From IMG/VR virus record IMGVR_UViG_3300014933_000358, positions 1 through 20,096 of that record: 20,096 bases of DNA; one strand, given 5' to 3'. Numbering within the stretch: the first letter of the stretch is position 1; each line of letters opens with the position of its first letter. The DNA is from a virus. Below are positions 4,206 to 19,517 of this stretch, one piece after another. The translations under genes were made by a program, and so were the position numbers. The notes below the pieces were generated by a model. It was not told where the DNA came from and ran no database searches. It worked only from the letters and a program-made list of their open reading frames with translations.

Positions 4206-5003
4206 TTAACGGTTGACGTTGTGGGTACGGAATTCAACCACACGCATTGGTTCAACTTTGAATTGATCCAACCATGCGCTGACCTTACCCGTGAATGTGC
4301 TGATGGTGCGGCCAGCACGGTCAGTTGTGCGGTGTTCCACTAGGGCATCACCGTAAGCAACTGGCGACTTGGCAGCAACCATTGCATCTGCGTAGATCTG
4401 CTTTTCAGCAATTTCCAGCAACTTGGCATCGCTGATAGAACGCAGATTCACGCCCTTGTATGCATCGCTGTAACCCTGCAAACCGCGCAGTAAACGCTTG
4501 CGGTATGCGGTCACGCCTTCGCCCTGCAATGGGCGGCTGGCTGATTTGCCGAACGCGGCCAGAACTGAATCTGCCTTTGCGCGGTAATCGTCCATACGGG
4601 CATGTTTTTCGTCTTCCTTTTCGGCGGCCAGATCATCGTCATCGGGACGCATTTCACCGGCATGTTCGCCTTCAAGTGCATTTTCCACCGGATTGGATCC
4701 TTCGGCATCTTTCCGCTTTTTGTCGGCGGCCTTCAGCAGATGGTGACCGGCGGCCTTGCTCATGTGATGGTCGAACGCTTCTTCATCGTCCATTTTGACT
4801 TCAGAACCGGCCTCTTCATCGTCTTCTTTGACTTCATGATGGGCTGAATCATCGTCATCGTGCTTTTTGTCAGCAGCTTTGACTAGCGGTGCTGCTGGCA
4901 TGTTTTCCAGTGCATCTACACGCGCACTGATCTTGGTCATTAGGGAAAGCAGCTGATCCAGCTTATCGCTGGCCGCATCTGCCTTTGCTACTGCATCGGT
5001 CAT
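4206..5003 (-). CDS. Nested in-frame scaffold protein from an internal start
   Basis: Inside the 629-residue gene, codon 365 is an ATG (5003-5001) preceded by AGAGGT (5016-5011) with eight bases between, a ribosome site stronger than those of several neighbours. Translation from it gives 265 residues (MTDAVAKADAASDKLDQLL...) containing only the coiled, acidic/His-rich scaffold part. A scaffold made from an internal start within the protease gene is the arrangement known for lambda C/Nu3. That this site is used is inferred from the Shine-Dalgarno and the domain boundary. Confidence 0.55.
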   Translation of the reverse strand: MTDAVAKADAASDKLDQLLSLMTKISARVDALENMPAAPLVKAADKKHDDDDSAHHEVKEDDEEAGSEVKMDDEEAFDHHMSKAAGHHLLKAADKKRKDAEGSNPVENALEGEHAGEMRPDDDDLAAEKEDEKHARMDDYRAKADSVLAAFGKSASRPLQGEGVTAYRKRLLRGLQGYSDAYKGVNLRSISDAKLLEIAEKQIYADAMVAAKSPVAYGDALVEHRTTDRAGRTISTFTGKVSAWLDQFKVEPMRVVEFRTHNVNR

Positions 5004-6095
5004 GGGAATTACCTCTGGGTTATTAAGTTCAACGCCTGTTGGCGCACCGCCTTTGTCCCACACGCCCCGTGACCCTCTTTCTTTGGTCACAATGGCAATG
5101 TGATCTAGTAGGAACGCTTTGCCTTCTATCAAGAGCGGTTCGCCTTCCTCTGTTTTGAGCGTGGTGTTTTCGGCTGTATCGTCAAACACTACGCTCGGAC
5201 TCGTTGAGATTTCGCCTTCGCAAATCTCATTCATTGCCTCTTCATCATAGATCCGTGCGATTCCCCAGACTTCATCCCCTCGGATGTATGGCAGCATGAC
5301 CGCGCCAATCGCACGTTTCTTGAATTCCTCGCCGGTCAGGATGGATCCTTCAGGGTGATCCATGATGACCATTAGACCGTTGCAACGCTTCAAAAATTCA
5401 TCATTCAGGTACAGGGACGCGTCCCGCCAAACGTGTTCGCCAATGGCACTGCGGTATGCCAACCCTGTTCCGGTGATCCGCAACGCCAGCAGGTGCATGT
5501 TGGCGTACACCTGTGGTGATGACAGCAGCCCTTCAGCCATCAATTGGGCAACGTCATATTCGGTTTGTGCGCTGGCCACCCGTAGCGTCACATTCATGGC
5601 CGGATGCAGCGGTTGCGGTGCTTCGGACGGTTTGCACCAGACATAGCCGGTGGATTCATCGCACAAATGGACTGGGAACTGTTCAGGGATCCGTGCCAGA
5701 TAGGTCGCAAATTGGCCGTTGTCCTGTATCAGCTCCAGCTTGCCGGAATACTTCATGCCGGTTTCTTCTTCGGCCTCCCGCCTTGCGCACTGCTCCAGCG
5801 TCTCGCCATGCTCTTGATGGCCACCGGCCAGCCCAAACGTGTTGGGATAGTCCCCGCCGTCACCCCTACGCAATAACAAAGTTTCGCCGGAATCCGTCAG
5901 GAACATGATTCCCGCCGCACGGCCACCGGATCCGGAAGGCGCAATTGATGCCGCCTCAACCCGTGGGGTCAGCAGTGACTGATCATCCACAAATTCCTTA
6001 CCCACGCGCTGTGGAATGCCCACCTTCCGCGCAAATTCTGGATTATGGGCAACGCCCTGCATGAGCCTTTCTTGTGCTGCGGATTTGGCTGGCAT
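4206..6095 (-). CDS. Nudix hydrolase + DUF2213-like prohead protease + scaffold fusion
   Basis: A 629-residue multidomain protein. Residues 1-40 hold a phage N-terminal segment (SAAQERLMQGVAHNPEFARK). Residues about 58-175 form a Nudix domain with a complete box, G92-x5-E98-x7-REAEEETGM (106-114), so metal binding and hydrolysis look intact. Residues about 195-345 resemble a DUF2213 prohead protease, with DHPEG (246-250), a Ser cluster ISTSPS (296-301) and DHIAIV (331-336). Residues 365-629 are a scaffold-like region with acidic/His tracts (DDDD, HH, DDEE) and a basic helical tail. The protease would remove the scaffold during prohead maturation. Protease plus scaffold is usual; the Nudix module is the oddity and its substrate is unknown. 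The ATG overlaps the MuF stop (TAATG). Confidence 0.8.
   Translation of the reverse strand: MPAKSAAQERLMQGVAHNPEFARKVGIPQRVGKEFVDDQSLLTPRVEAASIAPSGSGGRAAGIMFLTDSGETLLLRRGDGGDYPNTFGLAGGHQEHGETLEQCARREAEEETGMKYSGKLELIQDNGQFATYLARIPEQFPVHLCDESTGYVWCKPSEAPQPLHPAMNVTLRVASAQTEYDVAQLMAEGLLSSPQVYANMHLLALRITGTGLAYRSAIGEHVWRDASLYLNDEFLKRCNGLMVIMDHPEGSILTGEEFKKRAIGAVMLPYIRGDEVWGIARIYDEEAMNEICEGEISTSPSVVFDDTAENTTLKTEEGEPLLIEGKAFLLDHIAIVTKERGSRGVWDKGGAPTGVELNNPEVIPMTDAVAKADAASDKLDQLLSLMTKISARVDALENMPAAPLVKAADKKHDDDDSAHHEVKEDDEEAGSEVKMDDEEAFDHHMSKAAGHHLLKAADKKRKDAEGSNPVENALEGEHAGEMRPDDDDLAAEKEDEKHARMDDYRAKADSVLAAFGKSASRPLQGEGVTAYRKRLLRGLQGYSDAYKGVNLRSISDAKLLEIAEKQIYADAMVAAKSPVAYGDALVEHRTTDRAGRTISTFTGKVSAWLDQFKVEPMRVVEFRTHNVNR
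5011..5016 (-). promoter_or_regulatory. Internal Shine-Dalgarno for the nested scaffold start
   Basis: Minus-strand AGAGGT ending eight bases before the in-frame ATG at 5003. It sits exactly at the change from the protease domain to the scaffold region. Confidence 0.55.
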
Positions 6096-6910
6096 TATTT
6101 CGCGGAGTTCAGAAGCCTTCGCCCCTTTTCGGTCAGCATGTCATCGGGCAATGAAGCAATGGAGTAAATGTACGTGTAACGGCACTGGCAGAACACTTCT
6201 TCTGCTGGTTGCGTTATGTCCTGAGTGTAGCCATGCTTTCCAGCCTTCATCAACCCCTCTCGAATCGCCCAGTTGTCTGCCACTGCATAGATTTTGCCAT
6301 CCCGCTCCTTGTGGTCTTCGCGGTAGTCGTACCCAGCCGTGCGCCAGCGTGAGTGCCACTCAGCGGCAATTGCGCGGTTGTCCGTGGCAATGGTTGCATT
6401 CAGGGCGGCTGCAAATTTCTGGCTTTGGTCAATGATCACCCGCCGCTCTTGATACGTCAGGGCAATCACCGCTTTCCGGATCTTGGTTTTTTCCTTGCGG
6501 ATTTCTACCGCCTTGCTGCCGCCTTTGGGAATACTGGTTGCCCAGCCCTCAAACCGCCGCAATGTGGATGAAATGGCCTCTTGCCGGTTCAGCTTGATCA
6601 GGTTGGCACTGGCCAGCATTCGCCGTTCCAGCTCCCGCCGCATGGTTGGTTTCAGCATGTCCACGCTGAATTTGGTCACGGTTGGGTTTTGCTTCAGTGC
6701 GCCGCCACGGATGATCTGCCGGTTATAGACCGCCTTCAGCACCCGCCGTACTTCAGCTTCTGAATGTTTCGGCGACCCCAATTGCCTGTCCAGTGCTTCT
6801 TTTAGTAGACGGATCCAGCGATTTAGGTCAGCCTGTGACGTATAGCCCTTGGCTGCAAAGTAATCTATTGCTTCAGTCAAAACCTGAAAGAATGTTTTGC
6901 GGCTGGCCAT
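6095..6910 (-). CDS. MuF-like phage head morphogenesis protein
   Basis: A 271-residue protein. The C-terminal part carries the signature of Mu gpF-like minor head proteins: W-H-S-R-W-R-T-AGYDYREDHKERDGK (about 185-206), then KHGYTQDITQPAEEVFCQCRYTYIY with the paired Cys (about 225-251). Such proteins bind the portal vertex inside the procapsid and some are ejected with DNA. It stops in TAATG overlap with the protease-scaffold gene. The ATG at 6910-6908 has no visible Shine-Dalgarno (cacaaatctaatacttaa precedes it). The space where one would lie is occupied by the promoter of the divergent plus-strand gene, which suggests an insertion at this junction. Confidence 0.8.
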   Translation of the reverse strand: MASRKTFFQVLTEAIDYFAAKGYTSQADLNRWIRLLKEALDRQLGSPKHSEAEVRRVLKAVYNRQIIRGGALKQNPTVTKFSVDMLKPTMRRELERRMLASANLIKLNRQEAISSTLRRFEGWATSIPKGGSKAVEIRKEKTKIRKAVIALTYQERRVIIDQSQKFAAALNATIATDNRAIAAEWHSRWRTAGYDYREDHKERDGKIYAVADNWAIREGLMKAGKHGYTQDITQPAEEVFCQCRYTYIYSIASLPDDMLTEKGRRLLNSAK

Positions 6911-7147: not shown

Positions 7148-7429
7148 TCACATCCATTCCGGTGGAATTTCTGGGGCTATGACGTTGCCCATTTCGTCAT
7201 AGCCATTGGCTGCATTTTCTTCATCCTTTTCTTTGTCAGCGGCAATTTGCTCTTCCTTGCCGCCTGCATACACATCCCGAATAAATGCTGGCCGAAAAAT
7301 TTCATCGGTCATAAATTCAATTTTCTTTTGATTTATAACGCCATCATCCAGACACGCTTCAAACTTTTCTTCCACTGTTACTGGTTCATTTTCTCGGATT
7401 TTGATTACGACTTCACTGAACTTGCTCAT
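7148..7429 (-). CDS. Acidic 93-residue protein directly behind the portal-effector fusion
   Basis: 93 residues (MSKFSEVVIKIRENEPVTVEEK...), strongly acidic, with a charged stretch GGKEEQIAADKEKDEENAA around residues 56-74. No membrane segment or known motif. The ATG is 8 bases after the portal-fusion stop and has AGGTGA overlapping that stop, so the two are translated as a pair. Its place immediately after a gene with a toxin-like domain, together with its acidity, is what an immunity protein would look like. It could equally be a small head protein. I do not recognise its family. Confidence 0.65.
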   Translation of the reverse strand: MSKFSEVVIKIRENEPVTVEEKFEACLDDGVINQKKIEFMTDEIFRPAFIRDVYAGGKEEQIAADKEKDEENAANGYDEMGNVIAPEIPPEWM

Positions 7430-7437
7430 GTATTCAC

Positions 7438-10400
7438 CTATTTTTTCCCAAATTTTTCAGCGTAAATGTCTTCAATCAACCAACCCATTGCCAATGCTGT
7501 ACTTCTTGGCTGTGGGTTATTCAAGTATTCAGCCCAACATTCAGCAATAAATTCCATTTTATTTTCTGCGGCATATTCACTCACCAGCTCCTTCATGCCT
7601 GCTTTACCGTCTTTGCTGGCATCTTCCCATATTTTTTGCATTCTGGGATCAGTAAAACCTCTGGTGCCAACTCCGGTTTTATCAACCAATTTCAACAAAT
7701 TATCCATTTGATGACCGTATTCATGATCAGCGACAGATTTTATAGTGTCGCATCCTACTGGATGCCATTTGATCGCAAGTGATACATCTAATGTTTTTTG
7801 AAACAATTCTGTATCAGCAGCATACTTTTCATTAAAGAACACTCCTTTCCAATCACGTTGAGTGTCATAAGTATGTGCATCACCAACGCTATATGCCCAC
7901 GTTTTGCCACTGGTTTTTTCCAGCTTATGTCTTCTGTTTAGAAAAGCCTCAACTTCTTTTTCCAGCTGCTCTTCAGTCAGATTTGGTTGGATTTTCTTTA
8001 CAGCAAGTTTAGCCCACTCTTTTTCTGAACTTTTTCCTGCCTTAACAATATCCTTTGCCCTGACCTGAATGGATCCCATGTTTCTTTGTTCTGCGGCCAA
8101 TTCAGGGAATTTTTGCAAATGGAATGACAGCGATTCAATCTGAGCATTTACAACATCAATGTTCATTTTTCCAAAATTAGCGGCTGCCGCGTAATTGCTT
8201 TGAACAACAAACCTTGCAGCATCTGCAACCGTTTTTTGTGGGGTATATGGAACAAAATTTGTTTTGTTCTTTTCCACGCGCTGCCTGTCTATTAAGGCAT
8301 CCGCATGAGTCTTTTCAATCAATTGCTGTCTACTTTTAGCTTGATTTGCATTTAGCTCTTGTTGGATTTCCCATTTTTTATGGGACTCCATCATTCTGGG
8401 CATACCGTAATCTCTTATGCTGTCTCCCCAACTTTCGGCCTGTTCTTTATCCATGCCCAACTTGACCATTTTTTCAATGGATTGGGTTCTTAATTCATCA
8501 AGCTCCAGCAATAATTTTCCAAGATCAGATTGGCCAGCGTATGTATTATTTGCAATTGCTTGATTTAATTTCCAGCCCATGTCCCAAGCCTTTTGTTGTG
8601 CAGGCGTGAGAATAAATTTTCTGGCCATTGATCTGATTTGACTTGAATCCGTGGTTTCTTCTTTGATTTTGTTTACATATTCTTTTGCGGCTTCTTCACT
8701 CACGCCCATTTCTTTGACCATTTGCACGGCCTGCCTTTCTACTCTGTCAATTCCTTCGCCTGCCACAATAGCGGCCTTGAAATCATCAAGAATAGTGTCC
8801 CTTAAATGTGGGCTTTTTGTTTCCATACTCAATATGGATTTCGTGTCCTTTGACGTTCTTACCAAATCAGTCCATTTCTGGATTGCTTCCTGACGTATCT
8901 GCTCAACAACTTCCTTCGGCATATCACGTTCGGTCAGGTATTGCGTAACGGTGTCTTTGCCTTCTTCCAGCTTTTGAAGTTCACTTTCGGCCATTTCTTC
9001 CAGATTTTTGCCATCTGGCGTTTCTCTGGTTGGATCTGTTTTCCAGAAATTGATCATGCCGTCATGCGAGTTGCTGCCCCAGCTGGCCAATGCTTTTTGA
9101 TCACCGGTTAATTCTGTTGCAGCCGTCTTTTGCTCTCCGGCTGGCCTTGGTACTTTGAAATCCACATCCTTGGACTTGGACTGTACGCCCTCCAGCTTCT
9201 TGCCGTTCAGTTTGCCGCCAGCACCGCCCACAACCTCGCCGGATCCATTGATCAGCACATGCTGACCGTGACCCTCGCCATCCTTGCCTTCGCCGCCGTT
9301 TAACGTGATCCAGTGTTCATCGTCATTTGCGGCTGTAACCGCGTCAGCTTTTTTTGCGGTTGATTTCCCGCCTCCTTTGGATGCTCTGGCTTGGATTTTG
9401 TCCCATGCCGCATTGTAAACTTTCTTTTGTTCTGCAAATAATCTGAAAACTTCACGTTCTTCATTTTCAGTCAGCTGCCTGCCTTCGGCATTTGCATTTG
9501 TTTGAATTTTTCGTGCAGCCTCATACAGCTTGTGACCTTCGCCATCTTTTGCCTCAATCATTTCTTTGAAGTTCACCTGAACTTCAGTCACATGGCCGTC
9601 AATTTCAATGTTCATTTTAATGTCGCGGTATCCGTCCGGTGATTCGGCTTCGGATCCCTCAACCAACCCATTGCGCAAGCCCAGCGGTTTACCCATGCGC
9701 TGGCTGATCATGTCAATGGCTTTCAATGTCTGTTCAAAGTCATCCACCACAATGGTTCCGCGTACCAGATCTTTGATCTTGTTTGCATTGCCCTTGTAAT
9801 CGCCCACAATCTTTTCCACTGCACGCTTCACGCCTTTCAGCGGTGCCAGCATGATCTGATCCTGAACGCCCAGCTCAGTGGCAATCCCCAGCATCTGATC
9901 ATCGTATTTTGGCTTCAGCTTGGCCGCTTCTTTGTACTTCGCGCCTAAATCCTTTCTGGTTTGATCTGGCTTGATGCTTGAACCTTCAGCCTGTGGAATA
10001 TCAATGGATCCCAAATCAGACTCACGTTCTGCCAACTGTTCAGGCACGGTTAGTACTGGCTTTTCTTCTTTTGGTTCATGCGGCTGCCGTTCTTTGCGGT
10101 TGTATTCTTTGCGATTGTAATTTTCGTAATGTTCACGGGCAGCTTCTTTGGCCAACTCAAATGAAGATGACGTTTCTACCTTTTTGCCGGTTGGATCATA
10201 TACATAATAATTGCCTGACCTTGTTCCGGATATTGTAAAGCCCGTTTCTTTGCCGCCTACGGTCAACCCATGACTTGCTGGCATTTTCCCAAATCCAGTA
10301 CCCATCCATTGGGATTTTTGAGTGCGCTTGAATCCGTAATCTTTTGACTTATTGGCCGGTTCACTGGCCGCGCCGCCGCCGCTGCCAAACTTGCCATCCT

Positions 10401-11910
10401 TCGCCCGCGGGTGATCAGACTCTTTCCAATCAGAATCTGCTTTGGCAGCAATGCCGCCACCACCGCCGCCGTGGTCATGATCATGGCCGTCAGGCGTATC
10501 ACCGCCGCCCATGTCAGGCATACCGCCGCCCTCTTGTGGCGGTTCGTATTCGGCCAATGCTTCAATGTCCAGCTCCATCGGTGATGCAAACAGGCCGGTC
10601 ATGCCGTTGATGTTGTCCGTGAACCACTCAACCACCCGCGCCTTATTTTCTGGATCCACCATTGCGCCCAGCGTCTTCAGTACGTCAGCCATAGCTTTCA
10701 GCTTGTCTGAGTCACGCCGGATCTTTTCGGATTCCGGTTCTTCCAGCAGGGTTGGCCACTCTGTTTTGAACAGGTTATGTGCAAAATAGAAAAATTGTTC
10801 ATATGACATTTGCCCGATTTCTTCAGGATGGTCATTGGACAACGCTTGGTAGAATTCCTTATTCCATGCGCGGTGCTGAACAATTTTGTCGAAATAGGCA
10901 TACAGGCTGGCCATGTCATGGCGCAACCCCTCAATGTACTGCGCCACCGCCTTGGCATCTTCGGTGCCTTCCCCAAACCCTTGCGTGTATGCTTCATCCT
11001 TCAGCAGGATGGCCGGAACGTCACATGCCGCCGCAATGTTGGCAATGATGTTGTTCCGCGCCACGGTCATGGCCTTGTCCGTATTGTTCAAGTCGATTGA
11101 TTCAATGGATTCGTCAGGATTGATGGAAAGCACATTTCCGGTTTGCCCTTCCTTCAGCAGATCCCGCTTGCCAGTCGCGCCAGCCTGCATCAACCGATTC
11201 ACGATGGATCCAGATTGCTGGATCTTGGCAATCAATAGCCCCGCCTTCAGGGAAACCAGATCATCCACCGTCATGGTTTGGATGAATGATTTCAGCGGAT
11301 ACAACGCTCTCAAAAATAGGGATCTGCCGCTGAAACTGAAGCTGGATCCTTGGAATGAAAGGTAAATTGGCGTGCCGCAAAAAATCGTACATGTACGGCT
11401 TTGGTGGTACGGTTGTCCGGCGGCGGTAATGCTTTGGTTTGGCTTTTGGAAATCCGGTGCATTCGGGTTTTGGTTGGTCACAATGGATCCGGCCAGATTC
11501 AGCGGATCCAGCTGGTTAAAATACAGATCCGGCAGATCTGCCAATTTCCACGGATCAATTGGGTCAGTGGTTGGGATAGCGGGTGACCCGTAAACAATCG
11601 CTGATGCGCCATACACACGGGACAAATACATGGTGTCTCGGATGTGGTTTGTTGCCCCCAGCCGCTCCCATTCCCGTTCAAACGCTTCCTTCAGCTGATC
11701 TTCAATTGCGCACGGAATGTTGATCTTGCGGGACTTGGACAATGCCAGCCGGATTGGTTTTTCAATGATCTTTCCGGCCAGCGGGTGATATTCCCAAAGC
11801 AATTTGCATAGCTGGTAACTGACCGATGAACCAACTTGAACTTCATTGGCATCCAGAATTTTGAGCAATTCTGACGGCAGTACGGTGGAATTTATGTTAA
11901 TTGAACTCAT
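7438..11910 (-). CDS. Portal protein (DUF1073/HI1409 type) fused to RelA/SpoT-like and zincin domains
   Basis: 1490 residues, about three times a normal portal. Residues 1-460 are the portal (PLAGKIIEKP, SRVYGASAIVYG, FSFSGRSLF, ARNNIIANIAAACDVPAILL). Residues 461-495 are a Gly/His/Asp linker, followed by DHPRAKDGKFGSGGG (499-513). Residues about 655-840 resemble a RelA/SpoT nucleotide pyrophosphotransferase: KRAVEKI (695-701), KDLVRGTIVVDD (713-724), GYRDIKMNIEIDGHVTEVQV (760-779), keeping the family Asp (714) and Glu (776). HWITLNGGEG begins at 866. Residues 930-1220 are helical. Residues 1225-1490 look like a zinc peptidase with HEYGH (1396-1400) and EFIAECWAEY (1453-1462). The start is the ATG at 11910, overlapping the terminase stop (TAATG); a longer frame to 11961 lies inside terminase. 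The distal half is AT-richer than the portal half, suggesting acquired cargo. Confidence 0.85.
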   Translation of the reverse strand: MSSININSTVLPSELLKILDANEVQVGSSVSYQLCKLLWEYHPLAGKIIEKPIRLALSKSRKINIPCAIEDQLKEAFEREWERLGATNHIRDTMYLSRVYGASAIVYGSPAIPTTDPIDPWKLADLPDLYFNQLDPLNLAGSIVTNQNPNAPDFQKPNQSITAAGQPYHQSRTCTIFCGTPIYLSFQGSSFSFSGRSLFLRALYPLKSFIQTMTVDDLVSLKAGLLIAKIQQSGSIVNRLMQAGATGKRDLLKEGQTGNVLSINPDESIESIDLNNTDKAMTVARNNIIANIAAACDVPAILLKDEAYTQGFGEGTEDAKAVAQYIEGLRHDMASLYAYFDKIVQHRAWNKEFYQALSNDHPEEIGQMSYEQFFYFAHNLFKTEWPTLLEEPESEKIRRDSDKLKAMADVLKTLGAMVDPENKARVVEWFTDNINGMTGLFASPMELDIEALAEYEPPQEGGGMPDMGGGDTPDGHDHDHGGGGGGIAAKADSDWKESDHPRAKDGKFGSGGGAASEPANKSKDYGFKRTQKSQWMGTGFGKMPASHGLTVGGKETGFTISGTRSGNYYVYDPTGKKVETSSSFELAKEAAREHYENYNRKEYNRKERQPHEPKEEKPVLTVPEQLAERESDLGSIDIPQAEGSSIKPDQTRKDLGAKYKEAAKLKPKYDDQMLGIATELGVQDQIMLAPLKGVKRAVEKIVGDYKGNANKIKDLVRGTIVVDDFEQTLKAIDMISQRMGKPLGLRNGLVEGSEAESPDGYRDIKMNIEIDGHVTEVQVNFKEMIEAKDGEGHKLYEAARKIQTNANAEGRQLTENEEREVFRLFAEQKKVYNAAWDKIQARASKGGGKSTAKKADAVTAANDDEHWITLNGGEGKDGEGHGQHVLINGSGEVVGGAGGKLNGKKLEGVQSKSKDVDFKVPRPAGEQKTAATELTGDQKALASWGSNSHDGMINFWKTDPTRETPDGKNLEEMAESELQKLEEGKDTVTQYLTERDMPKEVVEQIRQEAIQKWTDLVRTSKDTKSILSMETKSPHLRDTILDDFKAAIVAGEGIDRVERQAVQMVKEMGVSEEAAKEYVNKIKEETTDSSQIRSMARKFILTPAQQKAWDMGWKLNQAIANNTYAGQSDLGKLLLELDELRTQSIEKMVKLGMDKEQAESWGDSIRDYGMPRMMESHKKWEIQQELNANQAKSRQQLIEKTHADALIDRQRVEKNKTNFVPYTPQKTVADAARFVVQSNYAAAANFGKMNIDVVNAQIESLSFHLQKFPELAAEQRNMGSIQVRAKDIVKAGKSSEKEWAKLAVKKIQPNLTEEQLEKEVEAFLNRRHKLEKTSGKTWAYSVGDAHTYDTQRDWKGVFFNEKYAADTELFQKTLDVSLAIKWHPVGCDTIKSVADHEYGHQMDNLLKLVDKTGVGTRGFTDPRMQKIWEDASKDGKAGMKELVSEYAAENKMEFIAECWAEYLNNPQPRSTALAMGWLIEDIYAEKFGKK

Positions 11911-13184
11911 TACAGAACCCTTGCATCGGTACAGCCGACAATCATGGAATATGCAGCGCAATCCAGCAGATCATCGGCACGTTTGTACGCTTCTTTGTCG
12001 CCAATTCGGAAAGTGGTGACCTGTTGTATCAGATGATTCATCGTCCTGCCTCTCCATTCCACGGTTTTATCGTAGGCATGGCGGCTGATTTTGCATTTGC
12101 CAGCATAGGCCGCACCGCCAGCAATCATCGCCCGTTCGTCCTTTCCCCGCGCCGTGATCTTAGAATCAATTGGCTTGATTGGCCACCCTCTTGCCCTTGC
12201 CTGCTGGATCAGCACCTGACCGCCAGCCGCGTCTTCTACCAGCAACCCAATGGATCCATTTCTGGCCTTGCACTGTTTGGCTAGGTCTTCGCACCGTTGC
12301 AGCACCCTTGGTGCCAGATGCTCAAGTGATGCGGCATCAATGGAATGCATTTCGTAATCCAGCCAGATTAGCTGGTGACCGTGGAATTCTGACAATGAGC
12401 AATACACAACCGCTGTTGCATCATGCTCAGATCCGGATTTGACCGCGCAATCCATGATGGCAAAAACCGCATCGCACATGTGCGGGTATTCCACCGGCTG
12501 GCCTTCATCCAAGAAATAATCTATGCGGAAAAACGCGTCCCCGTCCCAGCTGACAAATTCGGCCAGAAATTCCTGCCTCCATACCAGTGGATGCGCCATT
12601 TTCCTTTCCAGCTCCAGTTCGTCAGCCGGTACAAATGGGTTTCCGGATGTAGGTGCGTGGTGCGTTTTGAACCCCAGATTCGGGTCATGCCAGATCTGGT
12701 AAAAGAAATTCTCAGGATCTACCCCGCTTGGCGTGCTGGCCACCCACGCATCACCCCGCGTGGTCAGCAGGGTTGGCTTGATGCTCTTGCGCCATATGTC
12801 TGACATTTGGCCGTTCTTGGTGAACGCCGCTTCATCAATGCCTATCCGGTGATATTCGCGCCCACGCCCAGCCAGTTCATTGTTTTCCAGCGGCCAGAAA
12901 TCGACCACGCCGCCGGTCTTGGTGATAATTCGGCCATCATTCCGGCTGGAACTGGAAATCAGCGGCAGCAGGATTTCCTTGATAGCGTCATACGGTTCGG
13001 CCAGCTGCTTATGTTCAGGTGCAAAGAAACCAAACCGTCTGCCCTTGGCCGCCGTGTCAGCCGCCAATGTATTCAGCAGGATGGTTTTGCCGTAACGCCT
13101 GCCGCAACTGATGGCATTTAGCTTGCCCCTGTTCCGGTAAATATCAACCTGACCGGTGTGAAGGGTTGGCAGTTTGATAATCAA
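11910..13184 (-). CDS. terL: Terminase large subunit
   Basis: 424 residues; ATPase-nuclease that packages DNA through the portal. Walker A is CGRRYGKTILL (residues about 27-37). Walker B is YHRIGIDEAAF (about 111-121), with the catalytic acid after the Asp. The RNase-H-like nuclease carries acidic residues in AIMDCAVKSGSEHDATAVV and LLVEDAAGG. The closest known organisation is the HI1410-type terminase next to a HI1409-type portal. The frame begins with TTG at 13184, whose TTGA overlaps the small-subunit stop. There is no ATG before the Walker A motif, so the TTG start with translational coupling is well supported. Confidence 0.9.
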   Translation of the reverse strand: MIIKLPTLHTGQVDIYRNRGKLNAISCGRRYGKTILLNTLAADTAAKGRRFGFFAPEHKQLAEPYDAIKEILLPLISSSSRNDGRIITKTGGVVDFWPLENNELAGRGREYHRIGIDEAAFTKNGQMSDIWRKSIKPTLLTTRGDAWVASTPSGVDPENFFYQIWHDPNLGFKTHHAPTSGNPFVPADELELERKMAHPLVWRQEFLAEFVSWDGDAFFRIDYFLDEGQPVEYPHMCDAVFAIMDCAVKSGSEHDATAVVYCSLSEFHGHQLIWLDYEMHSIDAASLEHLAPRVLQRCEDLAKQCKARNGSIGLLVEDAAGGQVLIQQARARGWPIKPIDSKITARGKDERAMIAGGAAYAGKCKISRHAYDKTVEWRGRTMNHLIQQVTTFRIGDKEAYKRADDLLDCAAYSMIVGCTDARVL

Positions 13185-15536: not shown

Positions 15537-15573
15537 GGTGATTTCTCCTGAAAAATGATGATTACGCCGTCAG

Positions 15574-15611
15574 AAGTATTACAACACATGATTAGATGCA
15601 TTGCAATACTT
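15574..15611 (-). promoter_or_regulatory. 38-bp operator-promoter, copy 1
   Basis: Minus strand: -35 TTGCAA (15606-15601), 17 bases, -10 TGTAAT (15583-15578). The arms AAGTATTGCAA and TTGTAATACTT are inverted and span exactly 38 bp. A conserved leader follows (GACGGCGTAATCATCA, then an A/T-rich stretch, GGAGAAATCACC) up to the start codon at 15536. Same element as at 15972 and 19480. Confidence 0.75.
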
Positions 15612-15935: not shown

Positions 15936-15971
15936 GGTGATTTCTCCGAAAATTGATGATTACGCCGTCAG

Positions 15972-16009
15972 AAGTATTAGAACAGAATCGGCACACGGTT
16001 GCAATACTT
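15972..16009 (-). promoter_or_regulatory. 38-bp operator-promoter, copy 2
   Basis: Minus strand: -35 TTGCAA (16004-15999), 17 bases, -10 TCTAAT (15981-15976), inside inverted arms AAGTATTGCAA / TTCTAATACTT. It drives the 106-residue gene. The plus-strand promoter of the structured RNA begins 10 bp away on the other side, so a protein bound here could affect both. Confidence 0.75.
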
Positions 16010-19439: not shown

Positions 19440-19479
19440 GATGATTTCTCCGAAAAAATGATGATTTCCCGAACCGCAG

Positions 19480-19517
19480 AAGTATTAGAACACGACTGCG
19501 GATCTTTTGCAATACTT
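19480..19517 (-). promoter_or_regulatory. 38-bp operator-promoter, copy 3
   Basis: Minus strand: -35 TTGCAA (19512-19507), 17 bases, -10 TCTAAT (19489-19484), arms AAGTATTGCAA / TTCTAATACTT. The leader down to GGAGAAATCATC is similar to copies 1 and 2, but the part after the -10 is more diverged (GCGGTTCGGGAAATCATC). Its outer edge touches the stop codon of the 81-residue gene. Confidence 0.75.

Follow-up and report, generated by a model that had tools for sequence, protein, structure and literature searches.

A DUF1073 portal protein joined in frame to an Apk/Tas1-like synthetase domain and a zincin, a putative portal-borne toxin

Domain organization of the fused gene

We analysed a stretch of 20,096 bases (hereafter the window), which is the complete virus record IMGVR_UViG_3300014933_000358 of an uncultivated bacterial virus. 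Its central feature is a gene on the minus strand (7438..11910; start ATG at 11910, stop codon at 7440-7438) that encodes, within one reading frame, a DUF1073 portal, a pyrophosphokinase domain of the Apk/Tas1 type whose active site is conserved, and a zincin. In order, the product of 1490 amino acids (aa) consists of the portal, a linker, the Apk-like synthetase, a cargo header with a middle region, and the zincin. A preliminary description, made from the sequence alone, had read this gene as one uninterrupted frame of 1490 codons. Indeed, the frame contains no stop over 4.47 kb, the five remaining frames holding 40-112, and a second record (L002, IMGVR_UViG_3300015366_000306), from an assembly that is perhaps not independent, overlaps the window over 12,967 nt across the gene with 100% identity. 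The three-part architecture proposed there (portal, RelA/SpoT-fold domain and zincin in one frame) is borne out by profile, fold and motif evidence, and the motifs and residues named (D714, E776, HEYGH and EFIAECWAEY) lie where they had been placed. Scanning the fused protein against NCBIfam gave no match, PADLOC returned none either, and a search for internal translation starts that could yield free cargo turned up nothing stronger than weak candidates (codons 464, 687 and 1443).

The portal domain occupies residues about 1-460 (10531..11910, minus strand, as for the other genes and domains of the window). Its assignment to the DUF1073/HI1409 type relies on profiles (PF06381 at 4.7e-13 and 49 bits, above the cut-off of 33.8; phrog_146 at 1.1e-53 over residues 22-539) and on position, with the terminase upstream and a MuF-like gene downstream. 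It is followed by a Gly-rich linker with an HPRxxDGKFxSGG motif (residues about 488-520; 10352..10448), after which the cargo diverges in related phages. The shorter form of this motif, HPRxx(x)GxF, was found in 43 of the 136 sequences examined, where it marks the linker or the beginning of almost all cargo that follows these portals; the window copy is HPRAKDGKF (residue 500; 10385-10411). It is a possible packaging or recombination landmark.

The synthetase domain covers residues about 650-840 (9391..9963) and displays KDLVRGTIVVDD at 713 (including D714), GYRDIKMNIEI at 760 and E776 within TEVQV. The Pfam profile RelA_SpoT (PF04607) gave no match to the window protein at E<=1, short of its gathering score, and reached an E-value of 0.021 on a sibling domain (L073). 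A phmmer search with the synthetase region retrieved Tas1 (PDB 6ox6) at 1.9e-10; a nine-sequence profile brought this to 4.2e-17 and also matched RelA, RelSeq/Rel and small alarmone synthetases, with E-values between 1e-5 and 1e-3. The RelA/SpoT fold, which had been set beforehand as a check, was recovered: an AlphaFold2 model of residues 616-845 built from 17 sequences reached a predicted local distance difference test (pLDDT) of 93.7, and Foldseek ranked Tas1 first (9.7e-7, template modelling score 0.67 by target length), followed by SaEAS (an exported synthetase), RelQ, RelP and Rel. The best solved match by both sequence and fold is thus Tas1/Apk1, a (p)ppApp synthetase, so that the RelA/SpoT-like effector of the preliminary description holds for the fold and is sharpened as to the nearest enzyme, which is Tas1/Apk1 rather than RelA.

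Most of the active site is retained. Tas1 R330, E382 and Q384 correspond to R717, E776 and Q778 of the window, and the metal Asp, D327, to D714, whereas Tas1 K353 is replaced by R746 and N370 by K765 (Tas1/Apk1 numbering of R330, K353, N370, E382 and Q384 as in PMC12691689). R746 and Y761 complete the set of landmark residues, and D714, R717, E776, Q778 and H793 are invariant across 17 diverse sequences. At the syn2, syn3 and syn4 sites, the window reads RGT/DIK/QVN, its portal siblings RTT/D[IV]N/Q[IV]N and Tas1 RNT/GVN/QVN; Apk2 is reported to have RYT, GxN and YH, as against AVR, SxH and IR in RSH enzymes (PMC12226406). On sequence grounds, the window domain appears Apk-like at two of the three motif sites. 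Since exchanging Apk motifs failed to switch specificity (PMC12226406), substrate choice is not readable from these motifs.

By fold, the nearest viral relatives of the domain belong to polyvalent proteins of the DdrB-like and ART-PolyVal types. Outside portals, the viral domain most closely related to the synthetase (40% identity) lies in a polyvalent protein of more than 2,000 aa (L013, 6056-12325). In the synthetase tree, the window domain groups with portal-Apk domains and with those of the polyvalent proteins L013, L105 and L107 (support 96/93).

A second cargo header, DDEHWITLNGG...GGAGGKLNGKKL (residues about 866-915; 9165..9316), common to separate cargo genes after related portals, follows the synthetase. 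The header (DDEHWITLNGG...GGKLNGKKL) weakly matches the N-terminus of phrog_62, a family of 1881 positions annotated 'DNA helicase' (E 0.007), and could be a header of more general use in polyvalent proteins carried by virions.

The C-terminal zincin-like metallopeptidase spans residues about 1183-1490 (7441..8364). At the sequence level it combines an HExxH motif (HEYGH at 1396), a downstream ligand (E1453, in EFIAECWAEY at 1453) and a family profile, its last 305 residues matching phrog_324 ('head morphogenesis') at 6.3e-23; a further match of the zincin was to phrog_7153, at 3.3e-5. Peptidase_M90 scored under its cut-off (E 0.009), a PDB sequence search with the zincin gave no match, and a single-sequence search of viral_contigs recovered only the zincin itself. 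The N-terminal part of phrog_324 matches the neighbouring MuF protein of the window. Phages of this family would thus have MuF and the C-terminal part in one protein, the latter apparently being carried here on the portal.

Cargo and linked genes in related phages

A portal-alignment scan of viral sequences retrieved 80 loci, most of whose portals end at 468-497 aa. In longer portals of 748-772 aa, the C-terminal part is an Apk-like domain (L036, L039, L043, L044/L045, L051, L061/L067/L068, L069/L071), which amounts to seven further distinct portal-Apk fusions, all without a zincin; the portal-Apk readings of L048 and L065 are cut by the contig end. In L073 the arrangement is split, the Apk domain occupying its own open reading frame (ORF) directly after a short portal. 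Portals of 818-880 aa end instead in a P-loop domain that is weakly zeta-toxin-like (best Pfam E-value 7e-4, below the cut-off): L060 (3388-5913), L062/L064 (L064 2319-4910), L072 (2491-5133), L076 (1836-4436) and L077 (241-2697). In L072 and L077 a 66-aa acidic ORF, a possible antitoxin-like partner, directly follows the portal-zeta-like gene. Finally, L059 and L038/L040 encode after the portal an HExxH protein that begins with the header found at about 866-915 in the window protein, which may accordingly be a portal with an Apk cargo and a second, zincin cargo.

These results support the suggestion of the preliminary description that the portal tail serves as a cargo slot, other DUF1073 portals with Apk-like or zeta-like tails having been found. 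The region behind the portal is a hot spot, in which cargo is swapped after a constant linker. The DNA of L039 matches that of L041 at 99.86% identity for 3,554 nt, as far as the linker SDHPRGEDGKFVAG...GREVAA; the cargo that comes next is unrelated. In the pair L071 and L067, identity is 99.3% over 3,085 nt and the portals are 100% identical; beyond this stretch their synthetases are 54% and their antisense proteins (see below) 49% identical, before the DNA returns to 96%. In this pair the synthetase and antisense gene were replaced together. In the portal tree (a quick tree with no bootstrap), well-supported branches force at least eight changes of Apk state. Taken as sequences, these relatives display a constant N-terminal carrier with an exchangeable C-terminal toxin-like part, Apk and zeta-like cargo occurring on one portal group, and the portal tail is a swappable cargo slot.

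A tblastn scan of 50,697 records of isolated phages, which was not exhaustive, found no portal-Apk fusion, and in a likewise non-exhaustive scan of bacterial genomes none of the 27 loci with the domain had a portal in the same fetched stretch. Portal, Apk domain and zincin occur together in one distinct phage only. The portals closest to that of the window (L024, 79%; L003, 75%) are free of cargo, the portal being followed by MuF, and it is therefore likely that the window synthetase was acquired separately from those of its siblings.

A small gene of 66-77 aa (alignment A4) converges on and overlaps the 3' end of the Apk cargo. It was present in every one of the 12 Apk loci that could be read and missing from all remaining portal loci; after dereplication, it accompanied seven of seven clusters with a portal-linked synthetase and none of the 38 without (p = 2e-8, a somewhat overstated value, as clusters are treated as independent). 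The gene has ribosome-binding sites and its differences fall mostly at third positions, which shows that it is coding. Its product was predicted with a pLDDT of 90; comparison with the PDB gave no sequence match and no confident fold match, and no Pfam family was assigned. Homology to Tis1/IapK was considered and rejected, no PDB sequence or confident fold match having been obtained. Because of its distribution (7/7 versus 0/38 clusters), we regard it, by analogy with IapK/Tis1, as a candidate immunity gene.

In addition, four Apk loci (L039, L043, L045, L051) contain a downstream gene similar to HD-domain alarmone hydrolases. This linkage is comparable to that of aph1, which adjoins apk2 (PMC12226406). 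In PHB04-like phages as well, an HD hydrolase lies at most two genes from a Tas1-like ORF.

A proposed portal-borne toxin and its alternatives

In our view, the product of the fused gene is more likely than not a polymorphic toxin borne on the portal. It comes nearest to polymorphic toxins of the MuF-Apk2 kind, as the nearest enzyme is Tas1/Apk1 and both an alarmone hydrolase and the linked antisense gene occur in relatives. Under this model, the tail of the portal ring would be located inside the capsid, and the enzyme would enter the next cell along with the DNA, or act on the producing cell. With ATP as donor, it would pyrophosphorylate ATP/ADP (or GTP/GDP) at the 3' hydroxyl, which would deplete ATP and yield (p)ppApp or (p)ppGpp, and carriers would be protected by the immunity and hydrolase genes. 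The zincin could be a protease that frees the tail, or a second effector, the latter since zincin-free Apk portals exist (the seven distinct fusions) and zincins occur as separate cargo genes.

MuF-Apk2 toxins of temperate phages (PMC12226406, PMC11699363, PMC5576092) share with this system a phage head protein as carrier, a C-terminal (p)ppApp-synthetase-type domain and a place in the head-gene cluster, and, in relatives of the window phage, a small linked gene and an alarmone hydrolase. Here, however, the carrier is the portal, MuF being a separate 271-aa gene and the fused protein having no N-terminal MuF domain; in relatives the linked gene converges on the toxin gene, overlapping its 3' end, and has no detected similarity to the Tas1 immunity protein; and the Apk domain of the window is internal, with the zincin after it, in a phage in which no sign of lysogeny was found. 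Tas1/Apk1, a type VI secretion system (T6SS) (p)ppApp synthetase (PDB 6OX6), has the same catalytic residues save N370 (K765) and K353 (R746), but differs in its PAAR/T6SS carrier, its syn3 motif and an identity of about 25% in the fold alignment. Bordetella phages of the PHB04 type (L007, L014-L022) also possess a Tas1-like domain, encoded by a gene that overlaps the end of the portal gene, and an alarmone hydrolase lies at most two genes away, although the domain is in a separate ORF with other N-terminal repeats, behind a portal of another type. In Bordetella phage PHB04 itself (L007, 5086-7351), the Tas1-like ORF is annotated hypothetical and the HD hydrolase two genes on is labelled bifunctional (p)ppGpp synthetase/hydrolase.

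Several effector domains and a zincin in one virion-associated polypeptide are likewise known from polyvalent proteins and from portals fused to PBECR, 2H and Nudix domains, ARTs being fused to head or portal proteins (PMC5512222, PMC9503650); the available parts of these sources describe no RelA/SpoT domain on a portal, no cargo swapping and no cargo-linked antisense gene. The preliminary description named DUF1073 portals fused to Acb1, the assignment to one portal family resting on that description, and saw no Acb1-like paired H-x-T motifs in the window protein. Only HQS at 169 (portal) and HVT at 773 (synthetase domain) were found, in agreement with it. Its claim of a new cargo type stands for portals in the literature compared, but not for RelA/SpoT cargo as such, of which fusions to MuF are reported in PMC3482391, PMC5576092 and PMC5512222, and Apk2 is known to make (p)ppApp (PMC12226406). 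As far as this literature shows, the new elements are the use of the portal to carry Apk, the exchange of cargo between phages whose portals are nearly identical, the linked gene in convergent orientation and the stacking of Apk and zincin. Overall, the earlier interpretation is partly supported, with virion carriage, synthetase activity and release by the zincin standing as proposals.

Several observations weigh against a portal-borne toxin. Both the antisense gene and the HD hydrolase are missing from the window and from the overlapping 38-kb record. MuF toxins are reported only in temperate phages (PMC5576092), and a search of these partial records for a tyrosine integrase or a serine resolvase found neither. 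At syn3 the window carries K765, a position occupied by Asn in Apk1 and in the portal siblings. The window synthetase is not resolved as sister of the portal-Apk clade (99/93), and therefore the linked-gene evidence of the siblings applies to it by analogy only. Moreover, the antisense protein is unlike the Tas1 immunity protein, no match being detected, and 12 tails of about 1,000 aa each would be bulky inside one capsid.

Some of these points suit the main rival, an early-infection effector, in which the virion-borne enzyme makes alarmone in the new host and stops growth or rewires nucleotide pools in favour of the phage, a role put forward for polyvalent proteins. The fold relatives in DdrB-like and ART-PolyVal proteins, the grouping with L013, L105 and L107, the missing antisense gene and hydrolase and the lack of a detected integrase are all consistent with it. 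We nevertheless judge it unlikely, given that the siblings' synthetase is always paired with the small gene and exchanged with it as a unit, which is the behaviour of a toxin-immunity pair.

An enzyme of the toxSAS kind (FaRel2, CapRel), which would pyrophosphorylate tRNA CCA ends and make no free alarmones, is a poor candidate: it belongs to the same fold superfamily and the structures of CapRel and FaRel2 are among the Foldseek matches, but far lower than Tas1 and SaEAS, the RxT and EVQVN motifs fit Apk types (PMC12226406), and relatives have linked alarmone hydrolases. That the fold is an inactive module with a structural or targeting role appears slightly less probable still; K765 stands in place of Apk1 Asn370, a contributor to ATP binding, but the five invariant residues and the exchange of the synthetase along with its partner gene argue for a working enzyme. 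The assembly or sequencing artefact joining separate genes, already envisaged in the preliminary description, draws on the occurrence of the three parts together in one distinct phage only, and is largely refuted by the identical overlapping record, the open frame and the recurrence of portal-Apk fusions in seven other distinct sequences, which make it highly improbable.

Returning to the portal-borne toxin, we advance a broader proposal more tentatively. DUF1073 portals may be an unrecognised class of polymorphic-toxin carriers, in which one phage group swaps whole cassettes of toxin and immunity genes, with an alarmone synthetase, a zeta-like kinase or a zincin, at a constant linker position on the portal tail, the alarmone immunity gene being convergent on the opposite strand; the window would stack synthetase and protease, and the protease may free the enzyme. 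If so, the 12-copy DNA gate of the virion would also carry a toxin, portals would join MuF as a polymorphic-toxin platform, and the stoichiometry, packaging and release of virion toxins would become directly testable. The linked antisense gene and the near-identical phages with different cargo could serve as natural experiments on the purpose of virion toxins (host takeover, competition or superinfection exclusion), a question that MuF toxins raise as well.

Neighbouring genes and minor features

On the minus strand, the gene order is TerL, the fused gene, a 93-aa ORF, a short MuF-like gene, a NUDIX-DUF2213 protein, a 203-aa protein and a major capsid-like protein. Profile matches identify the terminase large subunit (TerL; 11910..13184), whose 3' end overlaps the portal start, and the MuF-like head morphogenesis protein (6095..6910; 271 aa), which has no C-terminal extension. 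The 93-aa ORF (7148..7429) lies immediately 3' of the fused gene and is missing in relatives where MuF directly succeeds the portal; no relatives of it were found. Judged by position, it is a possible immunity gene of another type.

The second gene after the portal (4206-6095) contains a NUDIX domain preceding DUF2213. In several relatives this position likewise holds a NUDIX gene, or one annotated as such, including where alarmone cargo is lacking. A role of this neighbour as dedicated alarmone hydrolase was set aside, as synthetase-free relatives have NUDIX too. Lastly, a 37-nt direct repeat occurs among small genes of the window (15550-15586 and 15948-15984, 95% identical), with a third, weaker copy at 19453-19489 (65% identity).
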